IMG/VR virus record: IMGVR_UViG_3300049053_000087
Coordinates: 1-56,885 of that record
DNA length: 56,885 nt
Origin: a virus
Strand: one strand, 5' to 3'
Below are positions 4,429 to 25,534 of the stretch, piece by piece. Both the position numbers and the translations under genes were made by a program. Under the pieces are notes generated by a model, which had not been told where the DNA came from, did not search any database, and was given only the letters and a program-made list of their open reading frames with translations. Position 1 is the stretch's first letter. The number at the start of each line of letters is the position of its first letter.

Positions 4429-5693
4429 CAGACGTAACATCAAGCCAGCCAGGCCTTTTTGACAAACCGAGGGCGGTTATCCGTGAAACCAGAATACTGG
4501 AATGCTGGTGCCCTAAGTGTCATCAGGGCCAAATTAAGACAATTCTTAGCGATAGCTTCCATAATGACCGTGCAATTATAGAAAGTGTTGGTAAAGAGTT
4601 TACATGCGTTAATTGTGGCATTGTATACGAGGTTGGCGACTTTCTATCTGTCATCCCTAACGCTTTTATGGTGGCGTCAAGGTCACAAGAAAGCAAAGTA
4701 AAATCAAATATGGAGGTCGAGGCTTGGCTGAATGAACCAGTAGTTAAAGATGAAGGTAATTACGATGGTGATGCAATTATGAAGGATCTGGAATTAGTTA
4801 ATCGGGCCTCAGAGGTAACTAATAAGTTCTTGGAAAACATGTTGGCGAAAATTAATAAACCGTCGAACCACGTGTCCCCGGAATTACCCGCTGAGGATAC
4901 TGAAGTTGAGCAGGAAGAAATGCCCGAAACAACCAATGAAGTACAGGCTGTTTTAAAACAATGCGCCGTACTTGGTAACGTAGTAAAACTTCCTGATGGA
5001 CAGCTCGATCGGAAGCTATATGCCGATGTGAAGAAGGCGTTAGAGTTGATCGGCGGCAATTGGAAAGGAGGCAAAACATACGGCTTTGTTTTTCAAACGG
5101 ACCCTACCGAATTGTTGGAGCAGATCGCTAACGGCGAAAAGCGCAACTTAAAAAAGGAGTACCAATTCTTTGAAACACCCGTTGAGCTTGCTGCGCGTAT
5201 GGTTGAGATGGCGGAACTGGGTGAAACCGATGGGCAGGGCTACGGCGACATACTGGAACCCTCAGCCGGTCAGGGCGCAATTGTAAAAGCTATACACGAA
5301 GCGACGGAAGGGGCTGCCACCGTGTACTGTTATGAATTGATGGATATAAACAGAGGTATACTTTCAGCAATGCCCGGCGTATCAATCATAGGTGACGACT
5401 TTTTGAAGGCTGCCAGTGTTGTCCAATACGATCGCATCATTGCGAATCCGCCGTTCACAAAGAATCAAGACATTGATCATATAAGGCATATGTATAACCT
5501 GCTGAAGCCTGGCGGGGTGATGGTTTCATTGGCTTCCCCAAGCTGGAAGTTTGGTTCTCAAAAGAAACAGGTCTCATTCAGAGAATGGTTAATTGGGATC
5601 GATGCGTATTTGCAGGAAATTCCGGAAGGCGCCTTTAAAGAATCAGGAACATCAATCAGGACCGTTTTGATTAAAATAGTAAAACCCGATTGA
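4425..5693 (+). CDS. N6-adenine DNA methyltransferase with N-terminal zinc ribbon
   Basis: 422 aa. The N-terminus has a two-knuckle Cys motif (CWCPKCHQG ... CVNCG, residues ~22-64) of zinc-ribbon type. The C-terminal half is a class I SAM methyltransferase: motif I as ILEPSAGQGAIV, an acidic end of strand 2 (CYELMDINR), and catalytic motif IV as IIANPPFTKN (NPPF), as in gamma-class N6 enzymes. It is the first of three DNA methyltransferase genes in tandem with no restriction endonuclease beside them, so protection of phage DNA or an epigenetic role is likely. An RNA or protein substrate is less likely given NPPF. Confidence 0.82.
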   Translation: MTDVTSSQPGLFDKPRAVIRETRILECWCPKCHQGQIKTILSDSFHNDRAIIESVGKEFTCVNCGIVYEVGDFLSVIPNAFMVASRSQESKVKSNMEVEAWLNEPVVKDEGNYDGDAIMKDLELVNRASEVTNKFLENMLAKINKPSNHVSPELPAEDTEVEQEEMPETTNEVQAVLKQCAVLGNVVKLPDGQLDRKLYADVKKALELIGGNWKGGKTYGFVFQTDPTELLEQIANGEKRNLKKEYQFFETPVELAARMVEMAELGETDGQGYGDILEPSAGQGAIVKAIHEATEGAATVYCYELMDINRGILSAMPGVSIIGDDFLKAASVVQYDRIIANPPFTKNQDIDHIRHMYNLLKPGGVMVSLASPSWKFGSQKKQVSFREWLIGIDAYLQEIPEGAFKESGTSIRTVLIKIVKPD

Positions 5694-6500: not shown

Positions 6501-8339
6501 ATGACTGATCCCTTATTCATAATTGTAGATCTTTTTTGCGGCGCCGGCGGTGATACAACAGGGTTCGTTCAGGCGACACTGGAAGGGATGGGAATTGCCA
6601 AGGTTATCGCGGGTGTAAACCATGATCCTAAGGCTATTAAAAGCCACTGGCTAAATTACCCGGAAGTAAAGCACTTTGAAGAAGATATCAGAACGTTGGA
6701 TTTGACCGACCTGGTTGCCCTGGCTCAATATTATCGGATCAAATACCCGGATGCCTACCTGATTTTATGGGCATCGCTGGAATGTACCAACTTCAGCAAG
6801 GCAAAGGGTGGTCAGCCCCGCGATGCTGACTCTCGAACTTTGGCCGATCATCTTGATCGTTATGTAATAGCCCTGCAGCCTGATTTTATCCAGATAGAAA
6901 ATGTTGTAGAATTTATGAGCTGGGGGCCTATGCGTATTAAGGCAAAGAAGCAACATGCTGATCGAACTGACTTATTTACGATTCCGTGCAATGGAAGCTT
7001 TGTTTATGGATGGATTCCGGAAAGTAGCAAAAATGGGCAGGATTGGTTAAGGTGGCGAAAACAGATCTGCTCACATGGATACGTTGACGAATGGAAGGAA
7101 TTAAACAGCGCCAACTTCGGCGCCTATACTTCTCGTAACCGGTTGTTTGGCATCTTCGCTCGCCCTGGGTTGCCTATTTGTTGGCCTGAGCCCACTCATG
7201 CAAAAAAACCTTCTAAACAAAGTATGCACGGCGATTTAAAGAAGTGGATGCCTGTTAAAGACATGCTCGATTTTTCCGATGAAGGAAAAAGCATATTCAA
7301 TAGGAAAAAACCGCTCGTCGATAATACCTTAGAACGCATTTACGCCGGCCTTATCAAATTTGTTGCAAAAGGTGACAATTCATTTGTGAGCAAATATTAT
7401 AGCGGTAAGCCAGCTGGTAAAGTTGTTAGCATCAATCAGCCTTCCAGCACTGTTACTACTTTCGGTAACCAAGCGTTGGTCCAAGCCGTTGGGTTCACCG
7501 CCCAATCAGTAGATCAACCGGCCGGTACTGTAACGACGATCGATCATCATGCACTCGTGCAAACAAACTTCCTGGTTAAGTACAATTCAAAACAAAAGGA
7601 TGGCAGCTACAATGCTCCATCTGTCGAAGATCCTGCGCCGGTAATAACAACTCAAAACCGGTTATATCTGGCACAATTAAAATTCATTACAAATTATTAC
7701 AGTAATGGAGGCGAGCTTACATCTGTTGATGGTCCCGCACCAACGATTTCAACACACGATCGATCAGCTGTCGTTTCGGTCACAAACCATAACAATCAAT
7801 CTATCGATCAGCCAGCTGGTGTGATAATGACCAATGACAAGCACAGTGTTGTGAATTGTGAGCCGTTCATTATGCCGACCAATTATGATAACAAACCGGT
7901 ATCAACAGATCAACCGGCTCCTACCATAACAGCAAATCGAAAGCATCATTATTTAATTAATCCTGCATACGGGGGCAATCCTTTATCAACAGATAACCCC
8001 TGTCCTGTTATTGTTGCGAGACAGGATAAGGTTCCGCTGTACCTGGTGCAGGCTGAAGAAGGATTAGTTGCTGTACCGGTATATCCAGGTGACAGCAAGA
8101 TTATGATCAAGATAAAAGAGTTCATGGCCATCTTTAATATCGCGGATATAAAGATGCGCATGTTCAGAATTCATGAATTGTTACGCATACAAGGTTTTCC
8201 GTCAGGGTATAAACTTGAAGGAACTCAGGAGGACCAAAAGAAGTTCGTGGGTAACAGTGTGGTGCCGTTGGTTGTACAGAAGTGGACAGAGGCCCTTGGC
8301 TCCCGGTTGATCGAAACCTTTAATCAAAAAATTGCATAG
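6501..8339 (+). CDS. C5-cytosine DNA methyltransferase with repeat-bearing variable region
   Basis: 612 aa. Motif I is LFCGAGGDTTGF near residue 12; the catalytic-loop equivalent is ASLECTNFSKAKGG (Cys presumed catalytic, with EC replacing the usual PC) and motif VI is IENVVEFM. Motifs IX-X are at the C-terminus (RIHELLRIQGFP, VGNSVVPLV). Between them, residues ~307-517 hold seven degenerate units of the form S-x-D-x-P-x-x-T-I-T-T, replacing a normal-sized target recognition domain. Such insert repeats occur in phage-type C5 enzymes. It should methylate cytosine in phage DNA; no cognate nuclease is present. It ends with TAG. Confidence 0.87.
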   Translation: MTDPLFIIVDLFCGAGGDTTGFVQATLEGMGIAKVIAGVNHDPKAIKSHWLNYPEVKHFEEDIRTLDLTDLVALAQYYRIKYPDAYLILWASLECTNFSKAKGGQPRDADSRTLADHLDRYVIALQPDFIQIENVVEFMSWGPMRIKAKKQHADRTDLFTIPCNGSFVYGWIPESSKNGQDWLRWRKQICSHGYVDEWKELNSANFGAYTSRNRLFGIFARPGLPICWPEPTHAKKPSKQSMHGDLKKWMPVKDMLDFSDEGKSIFNRKKPLVDNTLERIYAGLIKFVAKGDNSFVSKYYSGKPAGKVVSINQPSSTVTTFGNQALVQAVGFTAQSVDQPAGTVTTIDHHALVQTNFLVKYNSKQKDGSYNAPSVEDPAPVITTQNRLYLAQLKFITNYYSNGGELTSVDGPAPTISTHDRSAVVSVTNHNNQSIDQPAGVIMTNDKHSVVNCEPFIMPTNYDNKPVSTDQPAPTITANRKHHYLINPAYGGNPLSTDNPCPVIVARQDKVPLYLVQAEEGLVAVPVYPGDSKIMIKIKEFMAIFNIADIKMRMFRIHELLRIQGFPSGYKLEGTQEDQKKFVGNSVVPLVVQKWTEALGSRLIETFNQKIA

Positions 8340-15642: not shown

Positions 15643-16275
15643 ATGAAGGTTATTTCCATTCTTCAACCCTGGGCCAGCCTGACAGTAATTGGTGCAAAGC
15701 ATATTGAAACAAGGACATGGAATACCAAGTACCGGGGCCCGTTGTTGATTCACGCCAGTAAAAAATTCACCGGTGATCAGAAAGCATTAGGTATTGATTT
15801 TAATCACCGTTATGGTGTTGGCCTTGGTTTTCCTGAACACCTGCCGGTCGGCCAAATCATCGGCGCAGTGAATTTGATAGACACCTTCCCCACGGACCGA
15901 GTATTTGCAGGCGCTGGCGGCGGAATAGGTTATAAATCAAACTTACGTGTGGTTGATGGAGATGTGTTCAGAATGATGCAGATAACCAACAAGGAAAAAG
16001 CTTTTGGCGATTATTCACTTGGCCGTTACGGCTGGTTACTTTCCGATCCGGTTCAATTTCAACCCGGTATATCCATAAATGGAAAGCTCGGTTTTTGGAA
16101 TTACGATGGTGCAATATCAGCCATTCAGCATGGACCTATTACCATAAAACAGATAGTTAAAAATGTTTGGATTGCAACCTGTATGGTTATTGGGCCATTA
16201 AAATGCGAGGTTGAACAAAAGGGATTGACAGAGCAGGATGCCATCACTAAACTTAAAAAATTTCTCAACACATGA
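15643..16275 (+). CDS. ASCH-domain protein
   Basis: 210 aa. The N-terminus KVISILQPWASLTVIGAKHI, with ETRTWNTKYRGPLLIHASKK, is the classic ASCH (PUA-related) domain: a strand-W-x-x-x-I-x-x-G-x-K-x-x-E-x-R pattern with K and E/R in the putative RNA-binding or catalytic pocket. ASCH proteins bind RNA, and some hydrolyse N4-acetylcytidine. A ~50-aa C-terminal extension after GFWNYDG is not part of the domain and is unassigned. The stop overlaps the next start by 4 nt. Confidence 0.82.
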   Translation: MKVISILQPWASLTVIGAKHIETRTWNTKYRGPLLIHASKKFTGDQKALGIDFNHRYGVGLGFPEHLPVGQIIGAVNLIDTFPTDRVFAGAGGGIGYKSNLRVVDGDVFRMMQITNKEKAFGDYSLGRYGWLLSDPVQFQPGISINGKLGFWNYDGAISAIQHGPITIKQIVKNVWIATCMVIGPLKCEVEQKGLTEQDAITKLKKFLNT

Positions 16276-16910
16276 ATAAACGAATGTTTCAAATTCTGGA
16301 TGAAATGAACCAGAAGGATGAAGAAAATAATACTGCAGCGGTCGCTGTAAGTGGTGATTTCGTCGCAGCAAAAACCGCAAAAGGCGGTGGCCACGTAACT
16401 ATTGGCGTACCTGCTGAGGTAATTACCCAGCTATTTCTGAATGAACGAGTTGCTGTTCTGTTGATCATTGATAAAAAGGAATATGACCGGATTGATAAGG
16501 AATCCAAGAAAATAGAACCGTCAATCTATACCACTTCGCCTGAACCAATCAATTTATGGTTCGAACTCAGTCGTGCACAATACCTCACTGTTCCCCGCTC
16601 CGTTATGCAGGCTATGCCAGTTGATTGGCAGTTGAGGATGGCTGAATGTTTAGATCAGCTGGATGCCACTATAGACTGGCGACCAAAGGAAGGCCGGTAC
16701 TGGGTGAAGTTGAAGAACGACAACGGCCGGTATATTCATGATCCATTAATGAACTATCGACATCCGGATCCAGGCGTGATAAAGTTTAAAACCAAGGAGC
16801 GGTCCTGCAGGGTTTGTGGTTGCACGGAGAATGACTGCCGGCAGTGTGTTGAAAAAACCGGTAAGCCTTGCTGTTGGGTAGCAGAAGATCTCTGTAGTGC
16901 TTGTGTATAA
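16272..16910 (+). CDS. hypothetical protein with C-terminal Cys-rich zinc motif
   Basis: 212 aa. The N-terminal half is unassigned (GGGHVTIGVPAEVITQLFLN). The last ~35 residues are a dense Cys motif: CRVCGCTENDCRQCVEKTG followed by CCWVAEDLCSAC. The arrangement recurs at the C-termini of unrelated phage proteins and probably binds zinc. The 3' end meets the sigma factor gene. Role unknown; a DNA- or protein-contact module is plausible. Confidence 0.6.
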   Translation: MNKRMFQILDEMNQKDEENNTAAVAVSGDFVAAKTAKGGGHVTIGVPAEVITQLFLNERVAVLLIIDKKEYDRIDKESKKIEPSIYTTSPEPINLWFELSRAQYLTVPRSVMQAMPVDWQLRMAECLDQLDATIDWRPKEGRYWVKLKNDNGRYIHDPLMNYRHPDPGVIKFKTKERSCRVCGCTENDCRQCVEKTGKPCCWVAEDLCSACV

Positions 16911-16921
16911 TTACTTCTCCC

Positions 16922-17368
16922 ATGCTAAAGAAACTTTACGACAACGACTTTCCCCGTTTAAAACAACTGGCATACAGCATGGCCGGCAATGAATGTGAGG
17001 ATCTTGTTCAGGATGCCTTCATTAAAATGATTCCGTATCAGCATTTATGTTATAGTGAAGCGCAGGCCTTGATAACAACCATCGTTAAGAATAAATGCCG
17101 TGACTGGCTGAGGCATCAAAAAACGGTGCTCCGATATATGAAAGCAATGCCTGAGCCGGAAACCAGCTGTGAGATATCCTTACCATTTGTAGCGAAGGAA
17201 ATAAGGAACCAGGTTAAACAGCTACCGGCATATACCAGGGCAATTATTGAGCTGAGATACTTTGAAGAAATGACGCTCCGGGAAATTGGGAAGATCGTGG
17301 GGAAGGATCATGCTACAGTATACAGTCAGATAAAAAATGGATTGCAAAAACTAAAAATGTTCCAATAA
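16922..17368 (+). CDS. sigma-70 family (ECF-like) sigma factor
   Basis: 148 aa from the ATG at 16922; a TTG at 16901 would add seven residues and overlap the previous gene. Region 2 is seen in LKQLAYSMAGNECEDLVQDA and the following LITTIVKNKCRDWLRHQK; region 4 in LPAYTRAIIELRYFEEMTLR with its HTH (EIGKIVGKDHATVYSQIKNG). There is no region 1 or 3, as in ECF sigmas. A phage-coded sigma in the early operon could switch host RNA polymerase to later phage promoters. Its stop shares one base with the RNA ligase start. Confidence 0.87.
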   Translation: MLKKLYDNDFPRLKQLAYSMAGNECEDLVQDAFIKMIPYQHLCYSEAQALITTIVKNKCRDWLRHQKTVLRYMKAMPEPETSCEISLPFVAKEIRNQVKQLPAYTRAIIELRYFEEMTLREIGKIVGKDHATVYSQIKNGLQKLKMFQ

Positions 17369-17931
17369 TGCAAAAAATCATTTCTCTTTTCCAACGCAAT
17401 TATGACGGCGACAAGCTGGTGCGCAATGAAGTAACACCCGGCGCTGAATGGGTTATAAACGGGGAAGGTATTGCTACACGAAAGTAGGACGGCACATGCT
17501 GTATGATCAAAGGCGGCATTTTTTTCAAACGTTACGATTGCAAACAAGGCAAAATTCCACCGGTAGGATTTATAGAAGCACAGGCGCCTGACCCTGTTAC
17601 TGGTCACTGGCCGGGATGGATTGCGATCCTCAGCGATGATAATGCGCCAGAAAATAAATGGCACCGGGAAGCTTTTATGAACACTGCAACCGAAGATCTG
17701 GCAATAGGCGGCACGTATGAATTGGTAGGGCCGCGCATCAATGGCAATAAAGAAGGTTTCGAAAAACACTTCCTGATTCCGCATGGAAATGACATACTCG
17801 AAAGGGCGCCACGAACCTTCAATGAGTTAAAGGATTGGCTTGATCAACTCCGGATCGAAGGCATCGTCTGGCATCATCCTGACGGCCGCATGGTGAAAAT
17901 CAAGAAAAAAGATTTTGGATTAAAATGGTAA
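17368..17931 (+). pseudogene. RLIG1/DUF5565-like RNA ligase interrupted by in-frame TAG
   Basis: One frame, 187 codons, runs from ATG 17368 to TAA 17931 with a single TAG at 17485-17487. Before it: VINGEGIATRK; after it: DGTCCMIKGG, then GHWPGWIAIL, GTYELVGPRINGN, FLIPHGNDI, IEGIVWHHPDGRMVKIKKKD. This matches the nucleotidyltransferase RNA ligases of the RLIG1 (human C12orf29) family, where motif I is KxDG(T). The TAG sits exactly at x, right after the AMP-acceptor lysine (codon 39). Everything downstream is intact, so this is a fresh nonsense mutation, programmed readthrough, or a sequence error. Re-initiation at ATG 17503 would give a fragment without the lysine. Family known to seal 5'-phosphate/3'-OH RNA ends. 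Confidence 0.85.
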
Positions 17932-17934
17932 TGC

Positions 17935-18153
17935 ATGCCCGAAGAAATCCTGAACATCGAGCTCCACACGAAGATCCTTGTTATGAAGGCACTGGCCAGG
18001 AAGCCGAACCTTACGGCAGCTGCAGAGGCGCTCGGTGTATCGCTTCGCACCCTGCACCGGTATAAGGTGGCCTATAAAATAAGGCTGGTTGGTGAACAGT
18101 ATAAAATCATTGATCATAAAAATCAGAAAAATGGGAAATACAAAATTTCTTGA
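17935..18153 (+). CDS. small Fis/HTH-type DNA-binding protein
   Basis: 72 aa. The segment MKALARKPNLTAAAEALGVS followed by LRTLHRYK is a typical Fis-like (HTH_8) helix-turn-helix: helix, AAAEALGVS turn, recognition helix. The remainder is a basic tail (KNQKNGKYKIS). It starts 3 nt after the RNA ligase and is the clearest small DNA-binding protein in the early operon, so it is a candidate to act on the repeated operators found in the late region. It could be activator or repressor. Confidence 0.68.
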   Translation: MPEEILNIELHTKILVMKALARKPNLTAAAEALGVSLRTLHRYKVAYKIRLVGEQYKIIDHKNQKNGKYKIS

Positions 18154-22107: not shown

Positions 22108-22746
22108 TTACCTTTTAAACGCCATACTTAGTATGTTCTGCAGGCCGTGCTTACTCTTCCGTACTATATCCTCATGACCGGATACCGCCACCTTTCGCCA
22201 GCCGTAGTCGGCCATCATTGCAGCCAGGGATATTTCATTGAAATGACGGATATGTTCGTCCGGCTTACGGTGAGGGTACATACCATCAAACCAAGATTTG
22301 CCCTCGGTAATAATATGGCAATAAGGGAGTGACAAGCAAATCGTTTCAGTGGGTAGATCTTTTACAAAATCAAGGCTGGGAAAATGCTCCAGCACATCCC
22401 AAAATGTGATCACGTCAGCCTTTATAATCTCTGGCATAACGTAGGCGCCATCCAGTGGAACACCAGTAACATCGTGGCCATACACATGTTTAATGTGCTG
22501 TTTGGCTGAATTGATGAAGGCGCCGTTACCGTAACCGACATCCATAATGGAATTGACCGGTTTGCCATGGACGCCATGAACAAAGCCGAGGCGCAACGCC
22601 TGCAGTAGTTCGGAGCCCCGTACATATTCAGGTGTATCGTATGTAGCCGAATAAGCGGGATCATAAACGAATGGCCGGTGATCGGTTTGAACAATCACAC
22701 CAAAGCGGTCTACTTCATATTGGCGGCCGTGGGAGGTAAATTTCAT
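22108..22746 (-). CDS. class I SAM-dependent methyltransferase
   Basis: 212 aa. Motif I is NSIMDVGYGNGAFINSAK, followed by VYGHDVTG (acidic end of strand 2) and DVITFWDVLEHFPSLDFV, the D-V-L-E-H motif of small-molecule and glycan methyltransferases (Methyltransf_11/23 type). A His-rich C-terminal part (PHRKPDEHIRHFN) is also usual there. No DNA-type NPPY motif, so glycan or lipid is the likelier substrate. Its start overlaps the upstream GT9-like gene by 4 nt within the glycan operon. Confidence 0.8.
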   Translation of the reverse strand: MKFTSHGRQYEVDRFGVIVQTDHRPFVYDPAYSATYDTPEYVRGSELLQALRLGFVHGVHGKPVNSIMDVGYGNGAFINSAKQHIKHVYGHDVTGVPLDGAYVMPEIIKADVITFWDVLEHFPSLDFVKDLPTETICLSLPYCHIITEGKSWFDGMYPHRKPDEHIRHFNEISLAAMMADYGWRKVAVSGHEDIVRKSKHGLQNILSMAFKR

Positions 22747-23450
22747 GTTAGAATGTTTTCATTACTTGTAAATAGTAAAGTGTTTGTTTTGTTTCGTTTA
22801 GGTTCCAGGTAATAGGTTTTGCCCAGGCCCTGGGCTAACGTAAGTGCTACTGACTGGTTGCAATACAGTGCATTACAATCCCGGATCAGTTGTGCCATCT
22901 CCAAAATGTTTTGGGTTGGCAGGTGCGGTAGGTTGCCATACAACCGGCAGAACTCAGCGTGTTCTTCCTCAAAGCCGATGAAGTAGACTGGTCCCGCGAT
23001 GTTTTTAAACACCCGCTCCCAATTCACCTGGCTGCCGTCCCGCCAGCGTGGAGTAAGGTGAATAAGACTGTATTCACCAGATGGCGCACCAGGTGCGACG
23101 CCAGTGATTGTTAACCAAGGTTTGTTCCATCCTGTGGTCGGAAGCCCAAAGCGGGCAAGCATGTTCACAATAATATGAATGCGCCCGCGGCCACGCATTA
23201 ACCTGAAGCTATCTATGTCATAGTCGAACTGCAGGCCCGGTTCATATACCATGGAGTCAAAGCCGCCGGCTGTACACAGCACATCAAAGCCCTGCATTCC
23301 CAGCAGGTCTTTCATTACCGAATAGAGATTATGGAACGGTGGTTTATACCAAGACTCTTTCACATAAACGCGGGTAACGCCCAGCTTTCGCATGACCGGA
23401 ATGGCATAGACGATATCGCCACAACCGCCAGAGGTAGCTGCTGTAATCAT
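22743..23450 (-). CDS. GT9-like glycosyltransferase
   Basis: About 235 aa from the ATG at 23450, chosen because it overlaps the upstream stop as ATGA and opens the family motif ITAATSGGCGDIVYAIPVMR. The C-terminal half has YSLIHLTPRWRD, VYFIGFEEEHAEF, and IRDCNALYCNQSVALTLAQG, the GT-B nucleotide-sugar site seen in ADP-heptose:LPS heptosyltransferases (LPS-type S/N-x-S/G...A-x-G). The length is short for GT9 (~300-350), so part of the acceptor domain is reduced. It probably transfers a sugar to a surface or virion glycan. Confidence 0.65.
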   Translation of the reverse strand: MITAATSGGCGDIVYAIPVMRKLGVTRVYVKESWYKPPFHNLYSVMKDLLGMQGFDVLCTAGGFDSMVYEPGLQFDYDIDSFRLMRGRGRIHIIVNMLARFGLPTTGWNKPWLTITGVAPGAPSGEYSLIHLTPRWRDGSQVNWERVFKNIAGPVYFIGFEEEHAEFCRLYGNLPHLPTQNILEMAQLIRDCNALYCNQSVALTLAQGLGKTYYLEPKRNKTNTLLFTSNENILT

Positions 23451-23995
23451 GGATAAACGATAAGAAGATTGCGAATAACCGGATTTGCGCAATAATGGAA
23501 ATTATAGGCCGGGTTAATACTCTTCAAGTCAGAATCTAATTCATCCTCACAATATTTCGTCAGTCGGGTGTCGGTCATATAAATAAGGTCATCAATAAGG
23601 ATAACATGATCAACGCGGCCCGTTTTTTCAATTTGCTTTAATTCCTGTTTTAAAGGAAATGGATTTTTGCCTGGGTTCGTACCATCCAGCATTTGCCAAT
23701 GGCTATCCAACCAGAAGGTAATCGGCTCATTAAAACATCCGAGAATTTCACTCAGGCATTCCGCACTGTCGCCATGATGGATATAAATCTTACCGCTTGG
23801 CTTGTTTTCTTGTAGGTCAAAACGGCTTATGCAAAATTCAATTGCTGTGGGATCATTATCAATGCTGATGATCTTTTCGTATCCTGCATCAAGCGCCAGC
23901 TGGATACCGTCGCCCCGGTAACTTCCGGTTTCGATGAATACCCGGTTATCGCCTTTGAATTCTGCAAACAGGTTGCGGGTGGGGTGCATACTCAT
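23447..23995 (-). CDS. SAM methyltransferase-fold protein (FkbM/cephalosporin hydroxylase-like)
   Basis: 182 aa. FIETGSYRGDGIQLALDAGY is motif I (E-T-G-x-x-x-G-x-G), followed by KIISIDNDPTAIEFC and HHGDSAECL; ITFWLDSHW and VILIDDLI resemble the metal/catalytic acidic motif of glycan-modifying methyltransferases. Closest group by motif is FkbM-like or class I methyltransferase acting on sugars; the exact substrate is unknown. Two neighbours are GT9-like proteins. Confidence 0.65.
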   Translation of the reverse strand: MSMHPTRNLFAEFKGDNRVFIETGSYRGDGIQLALDAGYEKIISIDNDPTAIEFCISRFDLQENKPSGKIYIHHGDSAECLSEILGCFNEPITFWLDSHWQMLDGTNPGKNPFPLKQELKQIEKTGRVDHVILIDDLIYMTDTRLTKYCEDELDSDLKSINPAYNFHYCANPVIRNLLIVYP

Positions 23996-23997
23996 AG

Positions 23998-24849
23998 TTA
24001 TATCTTTTTGTTTTCAACTGCCCAATTAAAGATTGCTTCCGGTTCGCAAAATTGGCAGCCTTTATATTGCCCGCTTTCAATATCGGCCGGTGCCGCCCAT
24101 GCGTTCATCATAAGGTTGAGGTGTTTCGGATAAAACATAGTGACAGGGCAAGAAACTGTCGGTGCCAGAATACCCAGGCCAGAAGGGAAGGAGAAGAAGT
24201 ACTTCAGTATTTTCATAATCTCAATTACCACACCGAGTGGTTGCCCGATAGTATTAACGTAAGGGATACCTTCTTTTTCAAGCAGCTTCACAAGATTCCC
24301 GCCGAGATCGAGATCCCACTCGGCACCTATAATTACGAACTTATAACCCGAGTTATGCCGGTATACCATTTGGGCAAGCTCGAGCCACTTATGTTCGTTC
24401 CAGAAACCCCATGCCCGGGAAGTGTTGTATGAACTGCCATACAGTCCTATAAACTCGCGACCTGAACAATCAAGGATTTTATTCATTGCCTGGAAGTTGA
24501 ATTGTTCAGTGTCCCAATTTATACGGAAAGATGTATCCAGGTCGGGGAAGAAAAATTCAATCCGCTTTCCAGCTTCCAGATGTTTATTGGCGCTTAAATA
24601 AAAGTTGTCAGATTTGATATCCCGGAAGCTTTTCTTCTTAAACTGAACATTGTTTTTTTCAACAAAGTCGGTTCGCATTTTAACGTACCTGGTTTCAGCG
24701 GCTACCGATGGTAACAGGTCGAAAATTTGTTTACCCCGTTGCGGCTTGCCATCCGGCATTTCGAAAATAAATTGCTCGTTTGCATTTACCAGCTTTTGCA
24801 ACAGCCATATATTATCCCCGATGCCCGGGCATACTTTAATCGTTCTCAT
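23998..24849 (-). CDS. GT9-like glycosyltransferase
   Basis: 283 aa. The N-terminus RTIKVCPGIGDNIWLLQKLV is the G-x-G-D-x-x-x-x-x-x-x-x-L start of the GT9 fold. The second domain begins near FIGLYGSSYNTSRAW, with YKFVIIGAEWDLDLGGNLVK, INTIGQPL-type and the donor-site region FFSFPSGLGILAPTVSCPVT, in which the S-G-x-G/A-x-x-x-x-x-x-x-C-P pattern of heptosyltransferases is clear. It is paralogous in plan to the other GT9-like gene but sequence identity is low. Expected role: adding a sugar to an envelope polysaccharide. Confidence 0.68.
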   Translation of the reverse strand: MRTIKVCPGIGDNIWLLQKLVNANEQFIFEMPDGKPQRGKQIFDLLPSVAAETRYVKMRTDFVEKNNVQFKKKSFRDIKSDNFYLSANKHLEAGKRIEFFFPDLDTSFRINWDTEQFNFQAMNKILDCSGREFIGLYGSSYNTSRAWGFWNEHKWLELAQMVYRHNSGYKFVIIGAEWDLDLGGNLVKLLEKEGIPYVNTIGQPLGVVIEIMKILKYFFSFPSGLGILAPTVSCPVTMFYPKHLNLMMNAWAAPADIESGQYKGCQFCEPEAIFNWAVENKKI

Positions 24850-25534
24850 AATTTGATTTGTTTGGGAATAAAAGATTAAGCACCAGCTCCATATCTTTAT
24901 TTAGGCCGCGATCATCCAACGAGAAGTATGTCCGACCTTTAATCATATCGCCGATTGTATTAAATGGCAACGCAATTTTAATTTTCAAATCAGGGTAATG
25001 GTCACCGGTAATACCATTGTAACTGCAATAGATGGATTTTATAGCATACCCCCAGGCAATGTTCCAGGGCAAACCGGCAATAGCCCGAACGAGCTTTTCC
25101 TTTTCGAATACCATCCCACCATGGCCATAGTTGAATCCGGTACCTCCTAACTTATGGTAAGTATTGACCAATGTATTACGGTAAGTCTGGTGAGGGCTGA
25201 ATATTTTAATTGATTCTTCCAGTGTGGCGCAGTAATTATAATTGACCTGATATGGTTGAAGAAGAAATTCGTCATCAGAAATCCATGCGAAGGAATCACT
25301 GACCCGCTTATCCTCGCAGGCGGCCAATATCGCATTACATATATTACGTTGCTTGTGGTGCCGTTCCGGAGACTCTGTGAATGTAATGTGGAATACGTTC
25401 CGAAGAAAGCGCGGGCAGTCTCCGATGATGAATATATTTTCCAACTCAGGGAAGAACATTTGAATTCCCCGCAACGCATAACGCAGCTCAATGCCGTCGT
25501 TAACGCTGTTTTTGTAAGGAATTACTATATCCAT
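24836..25534 (-). CDS. Stealth-like sugar-phosphotransferase / glycosyltransferase
   Basis: 232 aa. MDIVIPYKNSVNDGIELRYA and LRGIQMFFPELENIFIIGDC parallel conserved regions 1 and 2 of Stealth proteins (D-I-V-x-P-Y ... E-L-R-Y-S-L-R-S-I ... I-Y-I-V-T-D), and FAWISDDEFLLQ is the DD-x-F-L acidic motif. Stealth proteins are capsule hexose-1-phosphate transferases. The rest (GHGGMVFEKEKL, IYCSYNGITGDHYPD) fits a GT-A-like core with a His. It is the first gene of the - strand operon and starts beside the late-region operator pair. Confidence 0.68.
   Translation of the reverse strand: MDIVIPYKNSVNDGIELRYALRGIQMFFPELENIFIIGDCPRFLRNVFHITFTESPERHHKQRNICNAILAACEDKRVSDSFAWISDDEFLLQPYQVNYNYCATLEESIKIFSPHQTYRNTLVNTYHKLGGTGFNYGHGGMVFEKEKLVRAIAGLPWNIAWGYAIKSIYCSYNGITGDHYPDLKIKIALPFNTIGDMIKGRTYFSLDDRGLNKDMELVLNLLFPNKSNYEND

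Follow-up and report, generated by a model that had tools for sequence, protein, structure and literature searches.

An in-frame TAG in the catalytic motif of a phage RLIG1-family RNA ligase gene is most likely a loss-of-function allele or a base error of assembly

Why would an otherwise intact phage gene carry a stop codon inside the catalytic motif of the enzyme that it encodes? The question arises in the 56,885-base virus record analyzed here (the window), where a gene resembling RLIG1-type RNA ligases contains TAG within the KxDG motif. An earlier note, made from the sequence alone, had offered four readings: regulated readthrough, an amber-suppressing host, a new null allele, or a base error. 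Our analysis favors the last two and gives no support to the first two; most likely, the stop either arose by a mutation that abolishes ligase function or is a base error in the assembly, and it does not mark a new reading of the genetic code.

The interrupted gene encodes an RLIG1-family RNA ligase

The gene and the codons of interest within it are as follows.
17368 to 17931, plus strand: RLIG1-family RNA ligase gene, 187 codons with one TAG inside (PF17720 match, alignment of relatives, and fold model)
17482 to 17484, plus strand: AAG, motif I lysine K39, invariant in 64/64 aligned homologues
17485 to 17487, plus strand: in-frame TAG, codon 40, position x of the motif I KxDG (direct reading)
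17503 to 17505, plus strand: first in-frame ATG after the stop, 6 codons downstream; it opens an ORF (17503 to 17931) of 142 aa without K39

The ligase ATG overlaps the stop codon of the preceding sigma-70-like gene (TAATG), and the frame closes with TAA, with the next gene directly after it. Translated through the TAG, the gene matched the RLIG1 profile PF17720 (E = 2.4e-14; 53.4 bits against a curated cutoff of 25), as did the segment downstream of the TAG by itself (E = 6.3e-13). The read-through protein aligned over its full length (187 residues) to stop-free relatives, with identity of up to 71%, and its only sequence relatives in the PDB were the Yasminevirus RLIG1 chains 9c6l and 9c6m. 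An AlphaFold2 model, in which the TAG was taken as Trp for modeling only, had a pLDDT of 93.4, and its best Foldseek match was 9c6l (E = 4.2e-12, TM 0.82); the read-through product is predicted to adopt the RLIG1 nucleotidyltransferase fold. The profile match and the relatives bear out the family named in the earlier note, and we conclude that the frame is an RLIG1-family (PF17720) RNA ligase. Given the family match, the full-length alignment, the relatives that read through the stop, and the rarity of mid-gene stops described below, it is no chance ORF artifact. In motifs I to V, fold, and family score it is like the 5′-3′ RNA ligases of the RLIG1/C12orf29 family (human, Yasminevirus 9c6l/9c6m, and mycobacteriophage), although it has 187 residues against 277 in the Yasminevirus RLIG1 chain. 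It differs from that family in having a stop at codon 40, so that no full-length product would be made under the standard code.

Residues K39, D41, G42, R55, E118, H139, E164, and K177, assigned to motifs I (KxDG), Ia, III, IIIa, IV, and V after PMC11494293, are all present, in columns that are invariant or nearly so. Direct reading confirmed that the TAG immediately follows the motif I lysine (...IATRK-*-DGTCC...), with GAC GGC (D41 and G42) directly after it. K39 is the equivalent of K57 in human RLIG1 and K73 in the Yasminevirus enzyme. Adenylation of human K57 was shown by mass spectrometry, and the K57M mutant took up no label (PMC11494293). Because the frame, uninterrupted in RLIG1, is broken here just after the equivalent of the catalytic lysine, the product as written would be unable to form the active site.

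The remainder of the gene is intact

The earlier note had described the rest of the gene as intact, and the alignment agrees: the window ligase deviated at none of the 33 columns conserved at 95% or above. No second lesion was found in the ligase gene, and its conserved sites showed no relaxed constraint. Between the window and its relative L002, dN was 0.21 and dS was saturated. Depending on the outgroup, 14 to 19 amino acid changes were unique to the window and 9 to 11 to L002, an excess too small to build on. This lack of decay implies that the lesion is recent, that the base is an error, or that the gene is still read, and sequence conservation alone would not separate the three. To that extent it counts against a null allele, as the same pattern is expected if the protein is made or the base is wrong.

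Translation of the TAG as sense is improbable

To find stops that relatives read through, 11,386 relative ORFs were mapped on the window. Codon 40 was the only gene-strand stop with many read-through relatives (72 alignments); no other gene-strand TAG was consistently read through, and the remaining plus-strand stop matches in the window were gene ends or single wrong-frame matches. TAG ends 5 of the 68 window genes, most of them with the next gene close behind, consistent with the earlier note's statement that amber is not globally recoded. The virus record contained no tRNA genes and hence no suppressor tRNA with a CUA anticodon. With a single in-frame TAG, TAG in use as a terminator, and no tRNA, amber recoding of the phage was rejected. 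Code 15 phages, such as crAss-like phages, read TAG as Gln and have suppressor tRNAs. The window resembles them in having an in-frame TAG within a phage gene but differs in its one such codon, its TAG terminators, its lack of tRNAs, and a position x at which homologues never carry Gln.

Mid-gene stops were rare in general. None was in frame within 81 DnaB-like loci, where the few flagged stops lay at alignment ends, and internal stops were present in 2 of 112 distinct ligase sequences, the window counted in. Apparent stops in DnaB and methyltransferase genes at other loci were rejected, as all lay at the ends of alignments.

Some full-length ligase would still be produced, perhaps under regulation, if near-cognate decoding or an amber suppressor in the host allowed ribosomes past the TAG. 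The fully conserved downstream part is what this would predict, and Belinky et al. (PMC7918605) argue that prokaryotes often read through a lone in-frame stop when the gene shows no other decay; with its one stop and intact downstream sequence, the window ligase is like the conserved in-frame stops suspected of readthrough in that study. The criterion used there, however, is that two or more orthologues share the stop (PMC7918605), and none of the 111 other distinct homologues that covered the site, drawn from viral and genomic collections, had a stop at position x. A stimulating stem-loop after the stop was also rejected: folding of the 119 nt from the motif was weaker than the shuffle mean (z = +1.31), with 187 of 200 shuffles folding at least as well. 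Some readthrough sites do without a stimulating RNA structure. With no homologue sharing the stop, no tRNA on the record, no stable RNA structure 3′ of the stop, and TGG in the nearest relatives (see below), the earlier suggestions of regulated readthrough and a suppressor host found no backing, and we consider readthrough of any kind quite improbable. Suppression, if shown, would make this an unusual example of an RNA ligase controlled by a stop in its catalytic motif.

Codon 40 may derive from a tryptophan codon

Alignment of homologues at position x, a check proposed in the earlier note, revealed sense residues in 111/111 other distinct sequences: Trp (41), Tyr (32), Phe (17), Leu (13), His (3), Val (2), Ile (2), and Met (1). 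The note had given TGG, TAT, TAC, and CAG as examples of sense codons that a base error might hide; Gln was never found at this position. In a ligase tree built with the stop site left out, the window adjoins L002 and lies close to L004, L005, L011, and L073, and all five carry TGG. TGG is converted to TAG by a single G-to-A transition, and one such transition from a Trp codon would be the simplest history of codon 40. Position 40 counts among eight Trp codons open to that change, so no special cause has to be invoked for a stop falling within the catalytic motif. The allele is like ordinary nonsense alleles of phage accessory genes in its one stop, its intact remainder, and the absence of the gene from relatives, and is distinctive only by its catalytic-motif position.

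Recurrence of TAG at position x in other viruses was rejected: a DNA scan of the whole of IMG/VR for TRK-TAG-DGT returned eight places, all nonhomologous and none in a ligase. Across 396 genomes of the family that includes Chitinophaga tropicalis, a ligase relative was present in eight, none with an internal stop. We found no sibling contig that was nearly identical but differed at this codon, and window positions 5001 to 30000 gave no megablast match to a GenBank phage.

The TAG might instead be a consensus or assembly error, or the base of a minority strain, in which case codon 40 is really a sense codon and the gene encodes a normal ligase. The window is a metagenomic contig, and the TAG is the one lesion of a gene whose conservation is otherwise perfect, one base removed from the codon of its nearest relatives. 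The site has no homopolymer, however, and no other lesion backed by relatives was detected window-wide, which argues that the contig is not generally error-prone. We regard this explanation as unlikely but a serious contender.

Ligase genes are broken at other sites in other genomes

A profile-driven search recovered a ligase (L228) with TAG at codon 12 and a frame otherwise open. This codon-12 allele (FQRN-*-DGD) was present at L263:1804-2340 and L262:1808-2317 (source records IMGVR_UViG_3300005680_000461 and IMGVR_UViG_3300005689_000302), two assemblies with 2,313 identical bases. Unless the assemblies share data, the same allele in both indicates that the codon-12 TAG is no random base error; a comparable ligase stop assembled identically twice suggests that such alleles are real, which weighs against an error in the window. 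The phage with the codon-12 TAG (G417) is unrelated to the window phage; TAG terminates 24 of its 76 ORFs, and no CUA tRNA was found within the 80 kb read. The use of TAG as a terminator in both stop-bearing phages speaks against readthrough.

The stops of the two phage ligases lie in the same 9-mer, TAGGACGGC (TAG GAC GGC), at different codons, a point in favor of readthrough. The common 9-mer results from both stops replacing the residue ahead of an Asp-Gly pair. The coincidence is uncommon, as this form is shared by about 2 of 57 exposed codons, though it came to notice post hoc and involves two cases. Phage RLIG1 ligases may sometimes carry UAG-GAC-GGC as a means of tuning a potentially costly ligase by low-level readthrough, the window and G417 being independent cases; we give this idea very little weight.

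In a Chitinophaga-family bacterial chromosome (G205), only the C-terminal 73 ligase residues are present (L180:6754-6972, minus strand), and this gene is a truncated remnant. Together with the codon-12 TAG, it indicates that the ligase gene has been lost repeatedly, at unrelated sites. Another Chitinophaga-family genome carries an intact, lone RLIG1-like ligase just downstream of tRNA-Ile(TAT) (L179:7658-8320, minus strand), with no other window genes nearby.

Because G205 too retains only a C-terminal part, and because the ORF that opens 6 codons past the stop still matches PF17720, a restart product with a role of its own might be proposed, such as RNA or nucleotide binding without adenylation. 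Met at the 17503 position is ordinary in intact relatives (44/64), however, and is thus no new start; characterized RLIG1 requires the motif I lysine for adenylation (PMC11494293); and no intact homologue with such an arrangement was found. This is the least probable of the readings considered here.

The ligase is variable accessory cargo

The ligase is the last gene of an insert.
16272 to 17931, plus strand: three genes, encoding an unknown protein, a sigma-70-like protein, and the ligase; absent from relative L082

The three extra genes of the window fall between 15643-16275 and 17935-18153, whose homologues lie side by side in L082. Of 16 related records searched, 13 were without the ligase; these were picked for DnaB or TerL similarity, and some are fragments. 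They include L081 to L083, whose DnaB is 76 to 80% identical to that of the window. Genome G194, from the family of Chitinophaga tropicalis, contains a prophage that matches the window via tail, terminase, and replication genes and had no ligase across the 40 kb read. The absence of the gene from relatives, the L082 locus without the exact insert, and the ligase-free prophage indicate that the ligase is variable cargo. Judging from the TerL and prophage matches, the host may be of the Chitinophagaceae type (Bacteroidota).

Taken together, these results lead us to favor, with some confidence but short of certainty, a recent null allele of a dispensable accessory ligase. In this scenario, an ancestral RLIG1-type ligase, most likely with Trp (TGG) at position x, would have acquired TAG at codon 40 by one substitution. 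Translation would stop after residue 39, keeping the lysine nucleophile and losing the remaining nucleotidyltransferase domain, and a restart at the ATG 6 codons on would yield a 142-aa protein without the lysine. As both possible products are incomplete, no active ligase is predicted. The lesion could persist, the ligase being optional cargo that occupies a variable slot of a Chitinophagaceae-type phage, and the lack of further decay suggests that the lesion is young. As a null allele, the stop would show only that this RNA-repair ligase is cargo that the phage can do without.

Two functional associations of the ligase were rejected: a role in a defense system, for which there was no PADLOC match, and a gene association with ASCH, which occurred in 2 of 70 ligase loci and 5 of 80 loci of a DnaB control set.

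Other genes in the window

The gene at 16901-17368, whose stop overlaps the ligase start, encodes a small protein with sigma-70-like regions 2 and 4; it had no relatives in the loci retrieved. Between the early genes and the terminase, five minus-strand genes (22108-25534), including a methyltransferase (PF13489) and a weak Stealth CR2 match, are possibly a surface-sugar cargo cassette. The C5-cytosine methyltransferase encoded at 6501-8339 (612 aa) matches Pfam in separate stretches, the first at 8-139, implying a large insertion; its PHROG match ends near 604. Long versions of this methyltransferase are also present in relatives L083 and L092.
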